Below, piece after piece: positions 19,120-38,118 of a stretch of 64,000 nt of DNA. The translations under genes and the position numbers were made by a program. The notes beneath the pieces are model-generated. The model was not told the origin of the DNA and searched no databases. It saw only the letters and a program-made list of their open reading frames with translations. Source of the stretch: an uncultured Anaeroplasmataceae bacterium. Its GTDB lineage: Bacteria; Bacillota_I; Bacilli_A; Acholeplasmatales; Anaeroplasmataceae. Position 1 is the first letter of the stretch. Each line of letters begins with the position of its first letter. The stretch covers positions 186,001 through 250,000 of the forward strand of contig CATKXV010000002.1 of the NCBI GenBank assembly GCA_949840955.1, given 5' to 3'.

Positions 19120-19250
19120 TTTTTTAAACTCCTTTCGCCTATAATCTTTGTATAGACTTGCTCCATGAGAAAACCCAACACATTGCAATGACAACGCTCT
19201 TCAGTGTGTCGGCAACCTCCCACTTCACAGCTAATATGCTTAGTCGATAA
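19120..19250 (-). promoter_or_regulatory. 5' leader of the S10 operon
   Basis: About 130 nt separate the predicted transcription start (near 19251) from rpsJ. The minus strand carries the segment GTGGGAGGTTGCCGACAC and a small palindrome CATTGCAATG, so hairpins are likely. A GTTGCCGACAC-like block before rpsJ looks familiar from other Bacillota, which would suggest a conserved leader, but this is from memory. Confidence 0.5.
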
Positions 19251-25030: not shown

Positions 25031-27568
25031 CTAGTAAATCTTAATATCCATAGCCTTTTCTGTAATATGTGTCTTAGTTACATCAAATTTAATTTTCATA
25101 TTCGTTATGTCAATTTTTTCATCAACTAAAACATATATTTCTTTTTGGCCTGTTCCATCATTTACATGACATTTCATGTATTTTTTATTACCATAATCTA
25201 AATATCGGTCAAACACAAGATCCAAGCCCTCTTCTTGATTTAGGATATAAGCATCGTGAGGTACTTCCAAAATATATTGCTTTGTAAAGACCTTTATTCC
25301 TAAGCTTTGAATCATTTTATTATCAATTTCATCACAAGAAAGCTCAACCAAATTATCTACCTTAAAGAAGAAAATAATATTGGCTCTCATCATTTCCTCT
25401 TGATATGCCTTATTTATTTTTTTGTATTCCTGCTTAAATTCCTTCGTCAATTTTTTCACAGGATAAGCTTCATTATAGCATTGTTCCTTAAGATCATTAT
25501 ATTCCTTTACCAAAGCATCTTTATTTCTTTTAAAGTTTCCCTTTAGCGCATTAACTTCTGTTTCATAGGATACTGCTTCTAAATTGATACGCTTATTTAA
25601 CTCATTTTGAAGCTCAAGCTTATGATTCATCTTAAATTGATGCAATTCCTCTAAACGATTTCGATAAGCATCTCGTTCCTTATTAATTTCTTTAAAGGCA
25701 TTAAAGGATTTAATTTCTTCCTGCTTGATATGCTCATAGGTTTCATTAACTTCCTTTGTGATTCTTTCATTTTTAGCTGTATGCTCCTGTTTTAAATCAG
25801 ATAGGTTCTTCTTCAAGTCCTCCTTTAATTGTGCAACAGCCGTCATTACTTCAGCTTTTTTCTTTGTTAATTGCTCTTGATTTTTAGCTACAATCGCTTT
25901 AGAATCAACATTTCCTACAGATGTACAAGCCTCATTATATTCTGCTTCTAGTTTTTCTAAAAGTGGCTGATATTTTTCATTTACTGCATTCACTCTTCTT
26001 GTTATCTCAGCATCATACTTATTTCCAACAAAGGATTTTGCTGTAGCGTGATTGATATAAATTGCATTTAATCTATCCATTTCAGTTAAACTATTTTGAA
26101 CAATTTGACCATTTGCTGTAAAGGTTAGCATTGCAAAATCAAGCTGAATCTCATATTTCTTTTCCGGATCAATCCTAGTATCTCCAACAGAAAAAATCGT
26201 ATTATCTCCAAGCTTCAATCCAATAACAGTAACATCCCCAACCTCAGTAACACTATCAATGCTGTGTCCTGAGTCTTTTTCCTCAAGGCGAATGGCTTTC
26301 GTAGGAATTTCAATGTCATATGTGCCATCCTCAAGCTGAATCGCATCTGGTAAGTCAACTTTAAGTGGCTTAACAATTTTATGATTTTTTATCTCAGCAT
26401 TGATTAGGTTTGCAACTGGAACTCTTGGATTAATGGTTTCTTCTGTTTCAGCATCAAAAATATGCATTTTCTCTAAGCGTAGCGCTGCTTCAACAACATC
26501 TCCTTTTTCCAGATTATAATTGGAGGTTCCTTTAATAATAACTCTAGTTGTAGATTCGATTAGACCTGTCTTTTCTAAATCAATATCTCCATAAATTAAA
26601 GTTTCATTACCAAGCTCCTCAAAATGAGAAATTCGTACCTTTATTTTTGCTGAGGAAGCTTTAACTATTTCTGGTTCTAAGGAAATGTCCTCACATCGTA
26701 ATCCGACAATCACTGGAGAGCTTCCATTTAAATATCGAGGCTGAACTCTAGCTAATGCTACCGCTGGAATAAGTAAGCTGTTTTCACTCTCCGTAAAATT
26801 AACGGTAACATTTTTGCCATTTTTATGTAATGCAGCCTTAAAGAAATTCATTTGTGGCGTACCAATAAAGCCTGCAACAAATAGATTTGCTGGGTAATCA
26901 TACAAATGCTTAGGAGTATCAATCTGCATAACCTTACCAAGCTTCATAACAACAACTCTAGTACCAAGTGTCATAGCCTCCACTTGATCATGTGTTACGT
27001 AAATAAATGTTGTTTTCAATTCCTCATGTAGCTTAGAAATTTCACTACGCATTTGTGCTCTAAGCTTAGCATCTAGATTGGATAACGGCTCATCCAAAAG
27101 CATTACCTTTGGATTTCTCAATATTGCTCTACCTAAGGCAACCCTTTGTCTTTGACCACCAGACATAGCTTTTGGCTTGCGATCTAAATATTCAACCAAA
27201 TCTAATATTTTAGCAGCCCACAAAACCTTTTTATGAATTTCAGCACTTGGAACATGTCGAAGCTTCAATCCAAATGCCATATTCTCATATACTGTCATAT
27301 GAGGATATAGCGCATAATTTTGGAACACCATCGCAATATCTCTATCCTTAGGCTCAACATCATTTACAATCCGATCATCAATATATAATTCGCCAGCTGT
27401 AATTTCTTCCAATCCAGCTATCATACGAAGTGTAGTAGATTTTCCACATCCAGATGGGCCAACGAATACAATAAATTCTTGATCCTTAATATCCATTGAA
27501 AAATCTGAAACAGCCTTTGTCCCATTTGGATAAACCTTATAAATATGTTCTAATCTTAACCCTGCCAT
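25031..27568 (-). CDS. Oversized MalK/MsmK-type sugar ABC transporter ATPase with coiled coil
   Basis: Residues 1-240 are a typical CUT1 ATPase: Walker A GPSGCGKST at 37-45, signature MSGGQ at 135-139, Walker B ending DE at 159-160. A TOBE/OB regulatory region follows (about 240-375). Then come about 470 residues that ordinary MalK (about 370 aa) lacks: a second TOBE-like stretch (about 400-495), a long Lys/Glu-rich coiled coil (about 515-725) and a C-terminal domain of about 120 residues. Enlarged sugar ATPases occur in Mollicutes, as I recall. It would energise MalF and MalG encoded upstream. It lies 17 nt after the amylase stop. Confidence 0.88.
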   Translation of the reverse strand: MAGLRLEHIYKVYPNGTKAVSDFSMDIKDQEFIVFVGPSGCGKSTTLRMIAGLEEITAGELYIDDRIVNDVEPKDRDIAMVFQNYALYPHMTVYENMAFGLKLRHVPSAEIHKKVLWAAKILDLVEYLDRKPKAMSGGQRQRVALGRAILRNPKVMLLDEPLSNLDAKLRAQMRSEISKLHEELKTTFIYVTHDQVEAMTLGTRVVVMKLGKVMQIDTPKHLYDYPANLFVAGFIGTPQMNFFKAALHKNGKNVTVNFTESENSLLIPAVALARVQPRYLNGSSPVIVGLRCEDISLEPEIVKASSAKIKVRISHFEELGNETLIYGDIDLEKTGLIESTTRVIIKGTSNYNLEKGDVVEAALRLEKMHIFDAETEETINPRVPVANLINAEIKNHKIVKPLKVDLPDAIQLEDGTYDIEIPTKAIRLEEKDSGHSIDSVTEVGDVTVIGLKLGDNTIFSVGDTRIDPEKKYEIQLDFAMLTFTANGQIVQNSLTEMDRLNAIYINHATAKSFVGNKYDAEITRRVNAVNEKYQPLLEKLEAEYNEACTSVGNVDSKAIVAKNQEQLTKKKAEVMTAVAQLKEDLKKNLSDLKQEHTAKNERITKEVNETYEHIKQEEIKSFNAFKEINKERDAYRNRLEELHQFKMNHKLELQNELNKRINLEAVSYETEVNALKGNFKRNKDALVKEYNDLKEQCYNEAYPVKKLTKEFKQEYKKINKAYQEEMMRANIIFFFKVDNLVELSCDEIDNKMIQSLGIKVFTKQYILEVPHDAYILNQEEGLDLVFDRYLDYGNKKYMKCHVNDGTGQKEIYVLVDEKIDITNMKIKFDVTKTHITEKAMDIKIY

Positions 27569-31765: not shown

Positions 31766-33055
31766 CTATTCTGAAGATTTAACAGCTGTATTGTAAGTAT
31801 CAATAGCAACCTTTAAAGTTTCATCTGTAAAAGTCAATCCAGCAATGCTTTGATTTCCTTCAACCTTTCCCTCTACAGAATAAGTACCATCCTTAATACC
31901 AGCTACTAGCTTAGTAGCAGCATCCCAAAGATTCGTTGGAGTAGAAGTCTGAGCATGTGCAAACTTTAATTGTTCACTTAAAACAATCATATTAGGATCT
32001 GCTTTTATATCCTCTCTCTTTAAAGAATCCACATTACAAGGTCCCCATGATAATTCATCATATCGCTTGTTTTGACATTCTTCACCAGCTAAGAACATAG
32101 CTAAATCATGTGCAGCAGTTAAACGTTTCACATCATTTTGAGCTCTTAAAGGATTAACACCTAATAGCTTACCACCAGCAAATGCACCTATATTTTTAGT
32201 TTCACCATCAATTGTAATGGTTGGCATTATTGCACATGCATAGTTTTCACCTAAAGCTGTTTTATATTTTGTAATATTCCAAGTACCAGCAATTCCACCA
32301 ACAATTCCATTGGTATCACTTGGAACACTATCAGGATCATTCAAATATGCTGGGCTTTTCATAATCTTAACAAGAGCCTTAGCTCCCTTTAATCCTTTAG
32401 TAGTATCAAAATCTGCGGTTACACCTGCAACCTTACCATCTCTATCAAATTCAATACTATAATCAGCACCAAAGGTAAACATAACTCCTGCTCCCCAGAA
32501 AGCTGTTTCTAATGGATAAGCAATCTTAGCATTTTTTTCTTCAGCAATTTCTAAGATTCTTTCCATGCTCTTAACATCTTCACTTGTGAAAACGCGTTTA
32601 TCATATTGGAAATAATATGTATTATCTCCTGTATATGGATAGCCATAATATTTTCCATTTAATGTAGCATTACTCTTTCCAAAATCATTTATTTTTGTAT
32701 CAATAAAATCCTTATAGGTAGAACGAATTTCTGCTAAAGCTCCCTTATCGTAAAGAGTAGCTAATTTATCTGGTGCATATTCATACACATCTGGTGAATT
32801 GGCTGCAGTCCAGTCAATAATTTCACTATCCACCAGATCAGGACCATGAGCAACATAATCAATTACATAATTCGTGTCATCTCCTGATTCTTTCTTCATA
32901 GTCTTAAAATTTTCAATAAGCTTTAAGGTAAAATCCTTGTCAGATTGTGTTCCTGAATATACAAGCTCAACCGTATTTCCTTTATTTCCACCATCACAAC
33001 CTGCAACACCAAGAGCTAAAGCTCCCAATGCCATAAATGCAAATATTTTTTTCAT
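31766..33055 (-). CDS. malE: Maltodextrin-binding lipoprotein, MalE type
   Basis: The 429-aa extracellular solute-binding protein (family 1) has a signal peptide with lipobox VAGC (Cys at about 20). Residues 30-50 contain the domain-opening strand and KDFTLKLIENFK; the fold includes the YGYPYTGDNTYYFQYDK segment and the hinge region GKLLGVNP. It hands linear glucans to MalFG. Its start follows AGGAGG by 6 nt, and it is followed by the malE-malF hairpin, which fits higher expression of the binding protein. Confidence 0.92.
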   Translation of the reverse strand: MKKIFAFMALGALALGVAGCDGGNKGNTVELVYSGTQSDKDFTLKLIENFKTMKKESGDDTNYVIDYVAHGPDLVDSEIIDWTAANSPDVYEYAPDKLATLYDKGALAEIRSTYKDFIDTKINDFGKSNATLNGKYYGYPYTGDNTYYFQYDKRVFTSEDVKSMERILEIAEEKNAKIAYPLETAFWGAGVMFTFGADYSIEFDRDGKVAGVTADFDTTKGLKGAKALVKIMKSPAYLNDPDSVPSDTNGIVGGIAGTWNITKYKTALGENYACAIMPTITIDGETKNIGAFAGGKLLGVNPLRAQNDVKRLTAAHDLAMFLAGEECQNKRYDELSWGPCNVDSLKREDIKADPNMIVLSEQLKFAHAQTSTPTNLWDAATKLVAGIKDGTYSVEGKVEGNQSIAGLTFTDETLKVAIDTYNTAVKSSE

Positions 33056-33074: not shown

Positions 33075-33746
33075 TCAAAATTTTTCAATTTCATTTATGA
33101 TTTCTTTTTTATTAAACCCTAATACATAATCCTTAACATCATGTTTAGGCGTTAAATTGGACTGTATGAAAATAGTTTTTATTCCCAATTTCTTTGCAGG
33201 AATCATATCACATTCATAATCATTTCCAATCATTACTACCGTGCTGATACTTAAATTAAATTTCTCGATCGCCTTTAGAAAAAAATTTTCATTTGGTTTT
33301 TTTATCTCATATTCTGAAGATATAGCTACACCAGTAAAGTACTTTAAGATTTTTAATTTCTTTAATTCAGGCATTGTAAAGGAGGCTTGGGCATTAGATA
33401 ATACATATAATCCATACCCCTTCTTCTTTAAATTTTTTAGCATAGCCTTAACTCCAGAATAGAGTCTAAGATATGTCGTAGAATACCTTCTAAAATCCTT
33501 AGCAAATTTTTTTGCCAAGTTGTCATCCACATGTAAAAGCTCACCAAACGCATCTAGCAAATTGATTTCTTCTTTTTTTTGATTTAGATGGAAGCAAATC
33601 TTTTTATACTGGTTTTTTAGTTCAATTGGAGTGTAGGAATGATATTTTCTCCATTTCTTAGCTAAGCCTTTCCAAAAGATCAGTGATTCTTCATCCGTTT
33701 TTATATCAATCAATGTACCATATAAATCAAACATTATATTTTTCAT
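33075..33746 (-). CDS. HAD-superfamily hydrolase (phosphatase)
   Basis: The 223-aa protein starts with the HAD motif I DLYGTLID, where the first Asp is the nucleophile. Motif II appears as LSNAQ, motif III as the Lys in EIKKPNENFF, and motif IV as MIGNDYECD. The cap is a helical C1 type. It could be a phosphoglycolate-, sugar- or nucleotide-phosphatase; a role in dephosphorylating beta-phosphoglucomutase-type sugars would suit this locus but is inference. It ends in TGA, rare in this window, and has only a weak SD (AAGGT). Confidence 0.85.
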   Translation of the reverse strand: MKNIMFDLYGTLIDIKTDEESLIFWKGLAKKWRKYHSYTPIELKNQYKKICFHLNQKKEEINLLDAFGELLHVDDNLAKKFAKDFRRYSTTYLRLYSGVKAMLKNLKKKGYGLYVLSNAQASFTMPELKKLKILKYFTGVAISSEYEIKKPNENFFLKAIEKFNLSISTVVMIGNDYECDMIPAKKLGIKTIFIQSNLTPKHDVKDYVLGFNKKEIINEIEKF

Positions 33747-33850: not shown

Positions 33851-35083
33851 TTATGCCGCTTTAGGTGTAGCTACACCAGCAACAATGTCATAGTCTGCTG
33901 TTTGAGCAAGCTTGCCATCCCAGCTTGGCTTTTCACCCTTAGGCATAAGAACGAATAAACCACCTGTTGTACCTGTAGGCGCATTAAATTTACCTTCTGC
34001 ATCTACTGGAATAAACGCTTGAGCAGAGCCACCCCATACCCATGCATAAACATCATACTCACCTTCAGCTGGCATTTCAGCGCCATCCTTAAGGTTTGCC
34101 TCAATCGTAGTTAAATCACATGTAGCTGAAGCAAATGTAAATACATGTGCAGCACCATTTGCATCCCATGCAACTGAATAGTCAACCGTTTGAGCTAACA
34201 TAGAATCCCAATTTGGTTCTGTTACATCTGTAGGGAATAACACGAATAAACCACCTGTAATGTCTGTAGCAGTTTCAAATTTACCAGCAGCATCTACACT
34301 AGCCCAAACACCAGTTCCAGCAGTGCCGCCCCATACCCATGCATATGTAATAAATTCTCCTTCAGCTGGCATTGTAGCACCATCTTTTAAATTATCTGCA
34401 AAGGTTGTAACATCCACAGTGAATTCATAAGTATCTCCAATTTCAGGAAGCTCATCTGTAATAATACCATCTCTTATAAATAAATCATTGGATTGGCCAA
34501 GCTTAGCTGGAGATTCCCAACTAGGATTTTGAGTACCCTTTTCAAAGAATACAAATAAGAAGTTTGTACTTCCTGTTGGAACAGTAACAGATCCGTCCTT
34601 ACAAGGAACAAAAATATCTGTTGGGTTTCCACCCCATACCCATCCATATAACTCATATTCAGCAGGTAATTCATCAATATCCTTTAAGTTATTTTGAACA
34701 AGCTCCATAGTATAGGTTACTTTATCTCCTTCAATCTCTTGAATAGGTGCTGCAATAACGATATTCATTGTTACAGTAATACCCTCATAAACAACCTTTA
34801 TTACATGAGCAGTTTCACTTGCAGTAGATAGCTTTGCATAATCCTCTGCAGGAATCATATCCTTTGTAACTTTAACTTCCTTAGTAGTACCATCACTCAT
34901 TGTAACTCTTAAAGTAATATCAGCAATCTTCTGATCTACCTCTGTTGTTAAAATAGAATTTGGTACAGTGTCTGGAATAACACTTACCTTTTCAACCTTT
35001 ACTTCTCCACTACATGCAACAAATAAGCCACATGTTACTAAAAGCGCAACGGCTGAAAAAAGTCTTCTTAAATTTTTTTTCAT
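33851..35083 (-). CDS. Surface lipoprotein with three WGG repeats, putative starch-binding
   Basis: I start it at 35083 (410 aa) because the signal peptide MKKNLRRLFSAVALLVTC with a lipobox-like FVAC follows, and GAGG lies close upstream. Residues 30-130 look like an Ig-like/bacterial adhesive strand domain. Then come three repeats of about 85 residues, each with NLKD, MPAE-like, YAWVWGG (first repeat YGWVWGG), a Thr-Gly turn, GLFV and PxWD followed by LAQT. Aromatic clusters of this kind suit binding of alpha-glucans, and the gene is the first of the starch operon. No family name is certain. Confidence 0.8.
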   Translation of the reverse strand: MKKNLRRLFSAVALLVTCGLFVACSGEVKVEKVSVIPDTVPNSILTTEVDQKIADITLRVTMSDGTTKEVKVTKDMIPAEDYAKLSTASETAHVIKVVYEGITVTMNIVIAAPIQEIEGDKVTYTMELVQNNLKDIDELPAEYELYGWVWGGNPTDIFVPCKDGSVTVPTGSTNFLFVFFEKGTQNPSWESPAKLGQSNDLFIRDGIITDELPEIGDTYEFTVDVTTFADNLKDGATMPAEGEFITYAWVWGGTAGTGVWASVDAAGKFETATDITGGLFVLFPTDVTEPNWDSMLAQTVDYSVAWDANGAAHVFTFASATCDLTTIEANLKDGAEMPAEGEYDVYAWVWGGSAQAFIPVDAEGKFNAPTGTTGGLFVLMPKGEKPSWDGKLAQTADYDIVAGVATPKAA

Positions 35084-35306
35084 CTTTCCTCTTTCTCCTG
35101 GCATTTTTTTTGTCTTACGGATTTTGCCATATCCACTTTTTCAATTTGTGTAAGACTCACAAATTGCTCAAAACGAGCTTTATATTAAAACCTAAAAGTA
35201 AGTTTTAATTCCAAAACGTGATAATACCCCCCCCGGGCATAAAATGAAGAAAAGAAATTTTCTTCTCCGGGAGAGGCATTTTTAATTTATTTCATCCATA
35301 GTTTAT
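35084..35306 (-). ncRNA. Structured 5' leader RNA of the starch operon
   Basis: About 220 nt separate the promoter from the first gene. Element 1: an 8-bp stem with a 4-nt loop (35246-35253 with 35258-35265) closed by a CTCCCGG/CCGGGGG stem (35267-35273 with 35230-35236). Element 2: a perfect 9-bp stem (35142-35150 with 35058-35066 of the next hundred, that is 35158-35166), whose loop 35151-35156 pairs perfectly with 35112-35117 as a 6-bp pseudoknot. A GGAT/ATCC hairpin lies inside. A TGGCA/TGCCA pairing (35125-35129 with 35099-35103) abuts the AGGAG at 35095-35099. The layout looks like a cis-regulator acting on translation. Confidence 0.6.
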
Positions 35307-35312
35307 ATTTCT

Positions 35313-35341
35313 ATTATATCAAAGATTGTTAGCGTTTTCAA
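35313..35341 (-). promoter_or_regulatory. Promoter of the starch operon
   Basis: TTGAAA, 17 nt, TATAAT on the minus strand (-10 at 35313-35318, -35 at 35336-35341), about 220 nt before the first gene. A catabolite-type operator overlaps the -35. Confidence 0.8.
35327..35340 (-). promoter_or_regulatory. cre-like / LacI-family operator in the starch promoter
   Basis: TGAAAACGCTAACA (minus strand) fits the CcpA cre consensus TGWNANCGNTNWCA at every defined position. It covers part of the -35 and the spacer, where a bound repressor would block RNA polymerase. It also holds the octamer AAAACGCT seen twice in the malQ promoter, so the local LacI protein, CcpA, or both may bind. Confidence 0.65.
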
Positions 35342-35411: not shown

Positions 35412-36914
35412 CTAATTTGTTCTGTTATATTTTAAAATATAACCCTTGATTCGAGCTGCAAGCTTATCTGACATTTGATTTTTCAAAATACGATAGCTCC
35501 AATTTTTAGTTGAAACTGTAGATGGCAGATTCATTCTTGCAGATTCATCCTGTGATAAAAGATCCTGAAAAGGAATAATACAGGTATTGGCTATAGAAGC
35601 AAAAGCAAGCTCCACGATGGTTTCTGTTACTGCTTCATAGCTATGATCCTTAACTTCTACCCCCAGCTTTAAGCATTCCTCCTTTAAATCACTCATAAAG
35701 GTATTTAAAGCATCTGGTTCTAAATCCAATATATATTGATACATCGGCATATTGTCATGTGTACCTGTATAAACAATATAATTCTCTTTAAAATTAGAAG
35801 GCTTATGCTCATTATCTCTACTTCCATCAAAAGCAAATTCTAAAATCTTCATTCCTGGATATGCGGTTTGCTTTAAAAGATTTCTTACATCATCATCAAT
35901 AAAGCCTAGATCCTCAGCAACAATCCGAAGCTCTAATTTATCCTTAAATAAATCAAATTTTGGACCATCCATCCATTCCCCAATACGTGCATTAGGCATC
36001 CCTGCTGGTATAGCATAATATTGAGCAAAGCCTCTAAAATGATCTATTCTTAAAATATCGTATAAATCAAAGGCCTTTTGAATCCGTTCGTTCCACCATT
36101 GATAGTTTGTTTTTTTCATGTATGTCCAGTCATATACAGGATTTCCCCATAGCTGTCCATCCTCTGTAAAGCAATCTGGAGGACACCCAGCAACGAGCTT
36201 AGGCTCGTGCTTTTCAGTTAAAACAAATAGCTCTGGATATTTCCAAACCTCTACGCTATCATAAGCAACATATAATGGCATATCTCCCATAATTTCTATA
36301 CTCTTAGATTTTGCATATTGGTGAAGAGCATTCCACTCCTCTAAAAATTCATATTGTGTCCAAATCCAAAATAAATATTCTTGCCTATGCTTCGTAAGAA
36401 TTTCTTCCTCTACTTCCTTAGAATATCTTTGATATCTTTCATCCCAAAGATTCCAAGGATGATATTCATGCATAGCCTTAATTGTCATGAAAATCGCGAA
36501 ATCCTTATAATTTCCTTGGTTTTCAAAGGCAATAAAGCTATAATCATTGCAATCAAATTTTTCAAAGGCTAATTTCAAAACCTTTATTTTTTCTGTAAAC
36601 AACAAGCTATAGTTTACTTTTACTTCATAATCACTAAATTTTCTAGTCTCATAATCCTTTTTCTTCAGCAGCCCTTTTTTGTGTAAAACATCAAAGTCAA
36701 TCAAATAGTAATTCAAGGCTGTTGATGAAACAGATTGATATGGCGAATCCCCATAATTGGTTGGTACAAGGGGTAAAACCTGCCATATCCTTAGCCCTGC
36801 CTTTTCCATCCAATCTACAAAATCGTAAGCGACAGATCCTAAAGTTCCAACACCGTATGGTGATGGCAAAGAAGTGATATGTAAAAGAACTCCTGCATTT
36901 CTATTGAAATTCAT
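35412..36914 (-). CDS. malQ: 4-alpha-glucanotransferase (amylomaltase)
   Basis: MalQ transfers glucan chains between maltodextrins and releases glucose in the cytosol. The ATG at 36914 (500 aa, MNFNRNAGVLLHITSLPSPYG) follows AAAGGAGG by 7 nt; an earlier in-frame start lacks an SD. GH77 features are SLPSPYGVGTLG, PTNYGDSPYQ, catalytic Asp in LRIDHFRG, Glu in RIVAEDLG and the distal Asp in THDNMP. It is divergent from the LacI regulator and has its own two-operator promoter. Confidence 0.95.
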   Translation of the reverse strand: MNFNRNAGVLLHITSLPSPYGVGTLGSVAYDFVDWMEKAGLRIWQVLPLVPTNYGDSPYQSVSSTALNYYLIDFDVLHKKGLLKKKDYETRKFSDYEVKVNYSLLFTEKIKVLKLAFEKFDCNDYSFIAFENQGNYKDFAIFMTIKAMHEYHPWNLWDERYQRYSKEVEEEILTKHRQEYLFWIWTQYEFLEEWNALHQYAKSKSIEIMGDMPLYVAYDSVEVWKYPELFVLTEKHEPKLVAGCPPDCFTEDGQLWGNPVYDWTYMKKTNYQWWNERIQKAFDLYDILRIDHFRGFAQYYAIPAGMPNARIGEWMDGPKFDLFKDKLELRIVAEDLGFIDDDVRNLLKQTAYPGMKILEFAFDGSRDNEHKPSNFKENYIVYTGTHDNMPMYQYILDLEPDALNTFMSDLKEECLKLGVEVKDHSYEAVTETIVELAFASIANTCIIPFQDLLSQDESARMNLPSTVSTKNWSYRILKNQMSDKLAARIKGYILKYNRTN

Positions 36915-36957
36915 AGTTCTTCCTCCTTTATTCAAATTATCGTACACTGTATTTCAT

Positions 36958-37095: not shown

Positions 37096-37113
37096 CAAGT
37101 AGAGGTGTTTTCT

Positions 37114-38118
37114 ATGAAAATAAAAGATATCGCTAAAGAATTACATTTATCCGTCTCTACTGTCTCTAAAGCACTCAATGGTGCATTTGACGTTTCTAAG
37201 GAAACGAAGCAGGTGGTATTAGCTTATGCTAAGGCTCATGGATATAAATCAAGAGATGAGCGCTTGACTGTAAAAACCATACGAAGATTATGCTTTATTT
37301 ATGATAATGTCGAACCAACAAGTCAATCGAATATTATCATTCCCCTAGGCTTAGCATTTTCCAATTACGCAAGAGAGCATAACTTTGAGGTTATCCAAAC
37401 TCCTATACAAAATATAACAACTAGCTATAATGAATTTATGAGTCAAAACAATTTTGATGGTGCCTTTATTGCAGGCTTAAACTATAAAAGCCCACTTCTA
37501 AACGAATTAAAAGGCACAGTATATCCTACTGTGCTTTATGATAATATTATGCTTGGAGATATGATTGCAACCATTCACAATGAAAATATAAACACCATAT
37601 CAAAGCTGGTTGAAATTTTAAAACTAAATCATCATACCAATATCGGCTTTATTCATGGAGATAAAAATTCCTTTATCAGCAATGAACGCTTTGCTGGATA
37701 CATTATTGGCCAAATGATGAATCATATTGAATATAAGCCAGAATATGTTTATTATGGCGATTTTAGTGAGGAATCTGGATATAAGGCAGCAGAATATTTT
37801 GTAAATACAGATGTAACTGCTGTCGTTTGTGCAAGTGATTTGATGGCGATAGGCTTAATTCGAGGCTTAGAATCCTTTGGACTAAGCGTTCCTACAGATA
37901 TTTCAGTAACAGGTTATGATGATATTGATATTTCTAAATATATTCGACCTGCCTTAACAACCGTAAAGCAGGATTTGGATTTGATTGGAGAAAAGGCCTT
38001 TACCCTTTTAACAAGCTTATTAATGAATCGTTCTAGCCAAAGAGTCGTGATTAGTGGGGAATTGATTCATAGAAATTCCATTGCTCCTATGCGTCCAAGG
38101 ACAAAATCAGATTCTTAA
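37114..38118 (+). CDS. LacI-family transcriptional regulator
   Basis: The 334-aa repressor starts at the ATG at 37114; a GTG three codons earlier is part of the SD (AGAGGTG). The LacI helix-turn-helix and hinge are at residues 1-50 (KIKDIAKELHLSVSTVSKALNG). A periplasmic-binding-like effector domain follows, with the family's VVCASDLMAIGLIRGLESFG and the ISVTGYDDIDISKY block. Context makes it a MalR-type sensor of maltose or maltodextrin for malQ and the starch operon. Its 3' end overlaps the convergent glmM by 32 bp. Confidence 0.9.
   Translation: MKIKDIAKELHLSVSTVSKALNGAFDVSKETKQVVLAYAKAHGYKSRDERLTVKTIRRLCFIYDNVEPTSQSNIIIPLGLAFSNYAREHNFEVIQTPIQNITTSYNEFMSQNNFDGAFIAGLNYKSPLLNELKGTVYPTVLYDNIMLGDMIATIHNENINTISKLVEILKLNHHTNIGFIHGDKNSFISNERFAGYIIGQMMNHIEYKPEYVYYGDFSEESGYKAAEYFVNTDVTAVVCASDLMAIGLIRGLESFGLSVPTDISVTGYDDIDISKYIRPALTTVKQDLDLIGEKAFTLLTSLLMNRSSQRVVISGELIHRNSIAPMRPRTKSDS

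Follow-up and report, generated by a model that had tools for sequence, protein, structure and literature searches.

A genus-restricted poly-G hairpin and an unconserved pseudoknot in the putative leader of an Anaeroplasma-group starch operon

Gene control in the anaerobic mollicutes of gut and rumen is poorly known, and starch use is central there. Several described systems invite comparison with a structured leader in front of sugar transport genes. The candidate RNA motifs malK-I, malK-II and malK-III reportedly stem from a 2017 list of 224 candidate RNAs. In Escherichia coli, REP hairpins between malE and malF are mRNA-stabilising intercistronic hairpins. The porA promoter of Neisseria carries a G-tract in its spacer, and the tract length sets promoter strength.

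The locus described here comes from an Anaeroplasma-group draft genome of 2.1 Mb. A starch/maltodextrin operon is encoded on the minus strand within the window, i.e. the whole 64-kb stretch of DNA that was analysed; the coordinates given below are window positions, and the features of the operon and its leader lie on this strand. In the direction of transcription, malQ for a 4-alpha-glucanotransferase (35412..36947) precedes the leader. It is followed by an orphan lipoprotein gene of 410 aa (33851..35083) as the first gene 3′ of the leader, a HAD-family hydrolase gene (33075..33746), the gene of a MalE-type sugar-binding lipoprotein (31766..33055), two permease genes, a GH13-type amylase gene and a MalK/UgpC-type ATPase gene. 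The ATPase (25031-27568) comprises 845 aa, with an ABC match over approximately residues 1-379 and a tail of about 460 aa. A LacI-family regulator gene (37105-38118) is located upstream of malQ in divergent orientation. In the preferred reading, an Anaeroplasma-type mollicute takes up malto-oligosaccharides by way of this operon, and the element is the operon's 5′ leader. Regulation by sugar would reside in a promoter operator, an upstream poly-G hairpin would be a constitutive mRNA-stability or insulating element, and a downstream pseudoknot would not be a switch. The probability of this reading as a whole is put at roughly 45%.

The original prediction could not match the leader to a known family, and a covariance-model search bore this out: at gathering score, none of the 4227 families of Rfam 15 was matched, the malK motifs included if that release contains them, and permissive thresholds yielded no family either. 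The leaders of the relatives belong to no Rfam family either. The sole Rfam match in the window is an S10-Clostridia ribosomal protein leader (RF03136, 45.7 bits) at 19135-19236 on the minus strand.

A SigA-type promoter, TTGAAA-17-TATAAT (35313..35341), agrees with 11 of 12 consensus positions and has a TG before the -10 hexamer. Its spacer contains the operator TGAAAACGCTAACA (35327..35340), which fits the cre/LacI-family consensus TGWAANCGNTNWCA with 0 mismatches. This is the single match of the consensus in the 64-kb window, where 0.08 matches are expected by chance. A matching promoter occurs at the equivalent place in the related genomes G005 and, read by eye, G008. The operator counterparts are TGAAAGCGCTAACA and TGAAAACGCTACCA (1 mismatch), respectively, so that a full promoter with operator lies upstream of the hairpin in three genomes, including that of the window. 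No good promoter was noticed between malQ and the hairpin in G001, G004, G007 and G009; the hairpin would thus be intercistronic there. Judged from the site, regulation by sugar most likely takes place at the promoter, on DNA via the operator. The candidate regulator binding in the promoter spacer would be the LacI-family protein encoded upstream of malQ or CcpA.

The transcript would carry a 14-bp hairpin with a mixed C/U pyrimidine arm, a G-run arm and a nested hairpin inside. In the window, this is the second, strong upstream hairpin that had been predicted (35223..35280; folding z-score against shuffles -5.0). It consists of the 5′ arm AATGCCTCTCCCGG (35280-35267), the nested hairpin GAAGAAAA/TTTTCTTC (35265-35246) and the 3′ arm CCGGGGGGGGTATT (35236-35223), which includes a G8 run (35227..35234). 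Six other genomes of the Anaeroplasma group have a malQ-HAD gap that could be read (G001, G004, G005, G007, G008 and G009), and the hairpin is present in every one, each time with a G10 run and with the HAD gene directly 3′ of it. In G008, the HAD gene is on a second contig, whose overlap with the first amounts to about 50 bases. In the relatives, ATRYCYYYYYYYC[A/G]G is followed by a variable nested hairpin, then by AATTATACT (one of them has AAATATACT), G10 and TATAYT.

The hairpin of the relatives has 14 pairs with one G bulged, and 84 of 84 pair cells in the six sequences are standard. The G arm is invariant among them, and the other arm retains pairing in 6 of 6 variable columns. The changes exchange C and U opposite G, and replace A by G opposite U. 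In the region enclosed by the arms, where the alignment is uncertain, 2 of 35 variable columns are transition-only. Shifting the partner by 1-3 columns as a control lowered pairing to 50-79%. Addition of the window's genome contributes one pair series, A-U, G-U and G-C; both arms are shortened together in this genome (8 Y + 8 G vs 9 Y + 10 G). In all seven sequences, the folding energy is -24.5 to -34.5 kcal/mol for the sense strand and -11.0 to -19.4 kcal/mol for the antisense strand. U pairs with G, but the corresponding A and C of the complementary strand do not pair; the full structure therefore forms only on the strand transcribed towards malE.

A covariance model built from the six relatives, without the window copy, found this copy as the best match in 10 kb (20.3 bits, E 0.002). 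The copy went unreported under the stricter filters of a whole-genome search and is therefore a divergent, reduced member. Strong matches (E below 1e-15) among 160 genomes of the order were confined to the six relatives. A pattern search through 257 Gb from 84,980 species genomes returned five contigs, all from the Anaeroplasma group. The hairpin-bearing records are named Anaeroplasmataceae bacterium, uncultured Mollicutes bacterium and Anaeroplasma bactoclasticum. Pairing is thus kept through base changes, as in a conserved structured leader RNA. On this comparative evidence, the hairpin is homologous across the genus, is always placed between malQ and HAD-malE, and is selected as RNA, as the pairing-preserving changes and the strand asymmetry show; the comparison comprises seven sequences of one genus and just one double-sided compensatory change. 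The poly-G hairpin is a genuine genus-restricted leader RNA with a probably constitutive function. Conserved in the genus and with an invariant G10 (G8 in the window's genome) amid an AT-rich genome, it is a regulatory element that lends itself readily to testing.

The hairpin would most likely serve mRNA stability or insulation. As a very stable barrier, it would shield the downstream mRNA from 5′ exonuclease or set it apart from malQ. A point against this role is the strictly kept G10, which exceeds the needs of a plain stabiliser. In an unlikely alternative, Anaeroplasma starch operons would possess a distinct type of cis-regulatory RNA, a Y9/G10 hairpin with a G-run of fixed length and a C/U arm pairing in any register. 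Protein, G-quadruplex or ribosome contact would open it or hold it closed and so set transport gene expression. Ligand binding by the hairpin is disfavoured because its interior is unconserved and reduced to a simple nested hairpin in the window's genome. A strong leader hairpin at a constant place before a sugar operon could also be read as a transcription attenuator acting ahead of the transport genes, downstream of malQ or of the promoter. Such a role is very unlikely: no U-tract directly follows the hairpin (TATATTTACG, TATTATCACG), which speaks against a terminator function, and no conserved antiterminator partner was noticed. A terminator scan selected a terminator-like hairpin of malQ and other small stems, not the poly-G hairpin.

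G-runs of at least 8 are distributed non-randomly in the genus. Besides intragenic ones, most directly precede TATAAT, with TTGACA 17-20 nt upstream. The pattern TTGACA-N8/9-G(7-11)-TATAAT gave 39 sites in 14 genomes from three genera of the family, and the reversed control pattern gave 0. The tract comprises 7-11 G in the strict pattern and up to 13 in looser matches, and the spacers are mostly 17-19 nt long. Many genes behind these promoters encode lipoproteins or secreted proteins. The genome of the window (G000) has sites at C1:224482-224511, C2:13598-13627, C2:33064-33095 and C3:136109-136138 (listed for the minus strand); those in relatives are L191-L220. By analogy, they look like phase-variable promoters of the porA type. 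A literature search found no report of G-tract promoters for the group, and the set, to which the work on the hairpin led, is apparently undescribed in these genomes. A number of contigs (L156, L159, L166 and L171) break off at a G-run or no more than about 50 nt from one, a pattern suggestive of tract lengths varying within the sampled populations.

The run in the mal hairpin could accordingly be suspected to be a contingency tract, in which slipped-strand mispairing alters the length and, with it, both the hairpin and starch operon expression. The genus does possess porA-like G8-G11 tracts in promoter spacers. In addition, contig C76 of G008 starts right after the mal G10 and overlaps the contig spanning it, as expected if tract length varied. 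However, the mal run counts exactly 10 G in each of the six relatives, against a range of 7 to 13 for promoter tracts, and both arms have changed length together in the window's genome. Whatever the register, G can pair with the C/U arm, and one G more or less therefore hardly changes the hairpin; the run also lies outside any conserved reading frame. A frame through it was rejected, being open in G004 and interrupted by a stop in G007. The constant ten in the relatives disfavours length switching, and the contig start in G008 leaves some doubt; a contingency tract is judged quite unlikely.

G10-TATATT might instead be an activator-dependent or decayed G-tract promoter, kin to the TTGACA-N9-G(8-11)-TATAAT promoters, and not an RNA element. 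The layout is identical, a G-run followed by TATAYT. Yet a -35 hexamer would have to stand 16-20 nt upstream of the -10 hexamer, with the tract between the two, and none of the seven sequences has one there; G10-TATATT was rejected as a promoter on this ground. The search pattern that collected the G-tract promoters likewise fails to match the mal locus. Moreover, some 50-65 nt upstream (42 nt in the window's genome) lies the 5′ arm, which is conserved by pairing, and a full promoter is already present upstream in three of the genomes. This explanation is highly improbable.

Two further G-run loci were noted. A second hairpin with a pyrimidine arm and G10 at G000:C1:145733 (L173, L226) follows a TTGACA-17-TATAAT promoter and precedes an LPG_synthase_TM gene. 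It was rejected as a second example, since the orthologue in G005 lacks the G-run. In the genus designated g4, the HAD gene after glgP (L081-L085: G048, G043, G044, G047 and G041) seems to use an AUA start in five of five species. A purine run (G8, G9, GGGGAGGG or GGGGGAGG) is placed 5-6 nt upstream as Shine-Dalgarno sequence, and no well-placed AUG, GUG or UUG was noticed.

The downstream half of the leader (35084-35213) contains the elements from which a pseudoknot had been predicted, all on the minus strand. Stem 1, CAATTTGTG/CACAAATTG (35142..35166), has 9 bp and a 7-nt loop, AGTCTTA. The loop bases GTCTTA pair perfectly with the downstream TAAGAC (35112..35117), forming a stem 2 of 6 bp, or 7 bp if the closing C joins. 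The proposed alternative pairing of TGGCA (35129-35125) with TGCCA (35103-35099) is likewise present; it adjoins the Shine-Dalgarno sequence AGGAG (35099-35095), and the helix alone amounts to -4.2 kcal/mol. A hairpin ATTAAAAC...GTTTTAAT (35184..35209) is found, like stem 1, in the window's genome only. With two helices of 9 and 6 bp and loops of 1 and 24 nt, the geometry is that of an H-type pseudoknot. Among dinucleotide-shuffled leaders, 0.17% contain a perfect stem of 9 bp or more together with a loop helix of 6 bp or more; once stems of 8 bp are admitted, the share is 0.6%. Both strands of the window together hold two such motifs; one per window is ordinary, its position in a leader less so.

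The folding z-score of the pseudoknot half is -1.3 (97 nt) or -2.0 (130 nt), depending on the ends, and that of the whole leader is -3.3. The surplus stability of the leader therefore comes mainly from the upstream hairpin with its far lower score. A long structured leader before the starch operon, as first proposed, is thus retained, but its conserved part is the poly-G hairpin and the pseudoknot is unconserved. Nested alternatives in the pseudoknot half lie within about 1 kcal/mol (-12.0, -12.9 and MFE -13.0 kcal/mol, pseudoknot energy not included). DNA searches for this half found no homologue in its own genome or the genus, and a search of phage records was empty. The pseudoknot is missing in the six relatives with a readable malQ-HAD gap, in which the distance from G-run to HAD start is only about 35-55 bases. 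The AATTATA and TTTTTAAA stretches common to the six hairpins are lost in the window's genome.

The set had been thought to resemble a cis-acting switch. As a translational switch, the H-type pseudoknot (35166-35112) would use its loop helix to keep TGGCA from TGCCA, and a ligand would open or shut the Shine-Dalgarno sequence. The short first and long last loop, the rarity of the motif in shuffled leaders, the competing helix next to AGGAG and the closeness of the computed alternatives fit this mechanism. Its absence from the relatives, the downstream gene without homologue, the z-score of just -1.3, the second motif in 64 kb and the missing Rfam match weigh against it. Both pairing partners come from one genome and no homologous sequence was found for this half, so no covariation or compensatory change is visible. 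Nor is there a conserved aptamer core with conserved unpaired bases, as in metabolite riboswitches. Lacking comparative support and folding little beyond shuffles, the switch is improbable. Most likely, the pseudoknot is not a ligand switch and would at most tune access to the ribosome-binding site of the lipoprotein gene. The lesson is negative: an attractive single-sequence pseudoknot proved to be the unconserved part of the leader.

The lipoprotein encoded next to it contains three YxWVWGG-like repeats. It had no match in Pfam, NCBIfam or PDB sequences and no relative in GTDB contigs (pattern method). A protein search in 54 other genomes of the family gave one weak N-terminal match and no worthwhile relative. 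An AlphaFold model made without alignment (pLDDT 44) was too poor for use. The protein is possibly a starch-binding surface protein. In the six relatives, malQ, the hairpin, HAD and malE succeed each other without the lipoprotein gene. Because the hairpin is directly followed by HAD and malE there, with no pseudoknot, the gene and the pseudoknot half evidently constitute, from the gene orders compared, an insertion or replacement in the window's genome.

Among the known systems, the malK-I, malK-II and malK-III motifs are likewise cis elements near maltodextrin transport genes. The element described here, known just from Anaeroplasma-group genomes, stands before HAD-malE or a lipoprotein gene. 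H-type pseudoknot riboswitches such as preQ1-I and SAM-II also pair a hairpin loop with bases just upstream of the Shine-Dalgarno sequence, whereas the present pseudoknot, from one genome, has no Rfam match, conservation or known ligand link. Promoters of the porA type share with the mal hairpin a G-run of similar length directly before a TATAAT-like hexamer. In contrast, the mal hairpin has no -35 hexamer, and its run is base-paired in the RNA and constant at 10 in six relatives. The operator is ordinary: in cre/LacI-family control of sugar operons, a 14-bp TGWAANCGNTNWCA site overlaps the promoter in the same way, with no notable difference. The mRNA-stabilising REP hairpins of E. coli malE-malF resemble the poly-G hairpin as stable hairpins at a gene boundary of a maltose operon, with freely varying loop sequences. 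The poly-G hairpin differs in its unbroken G-run of fixed length, set against a C/U-mixed arm, and is not repetitive in the genome.
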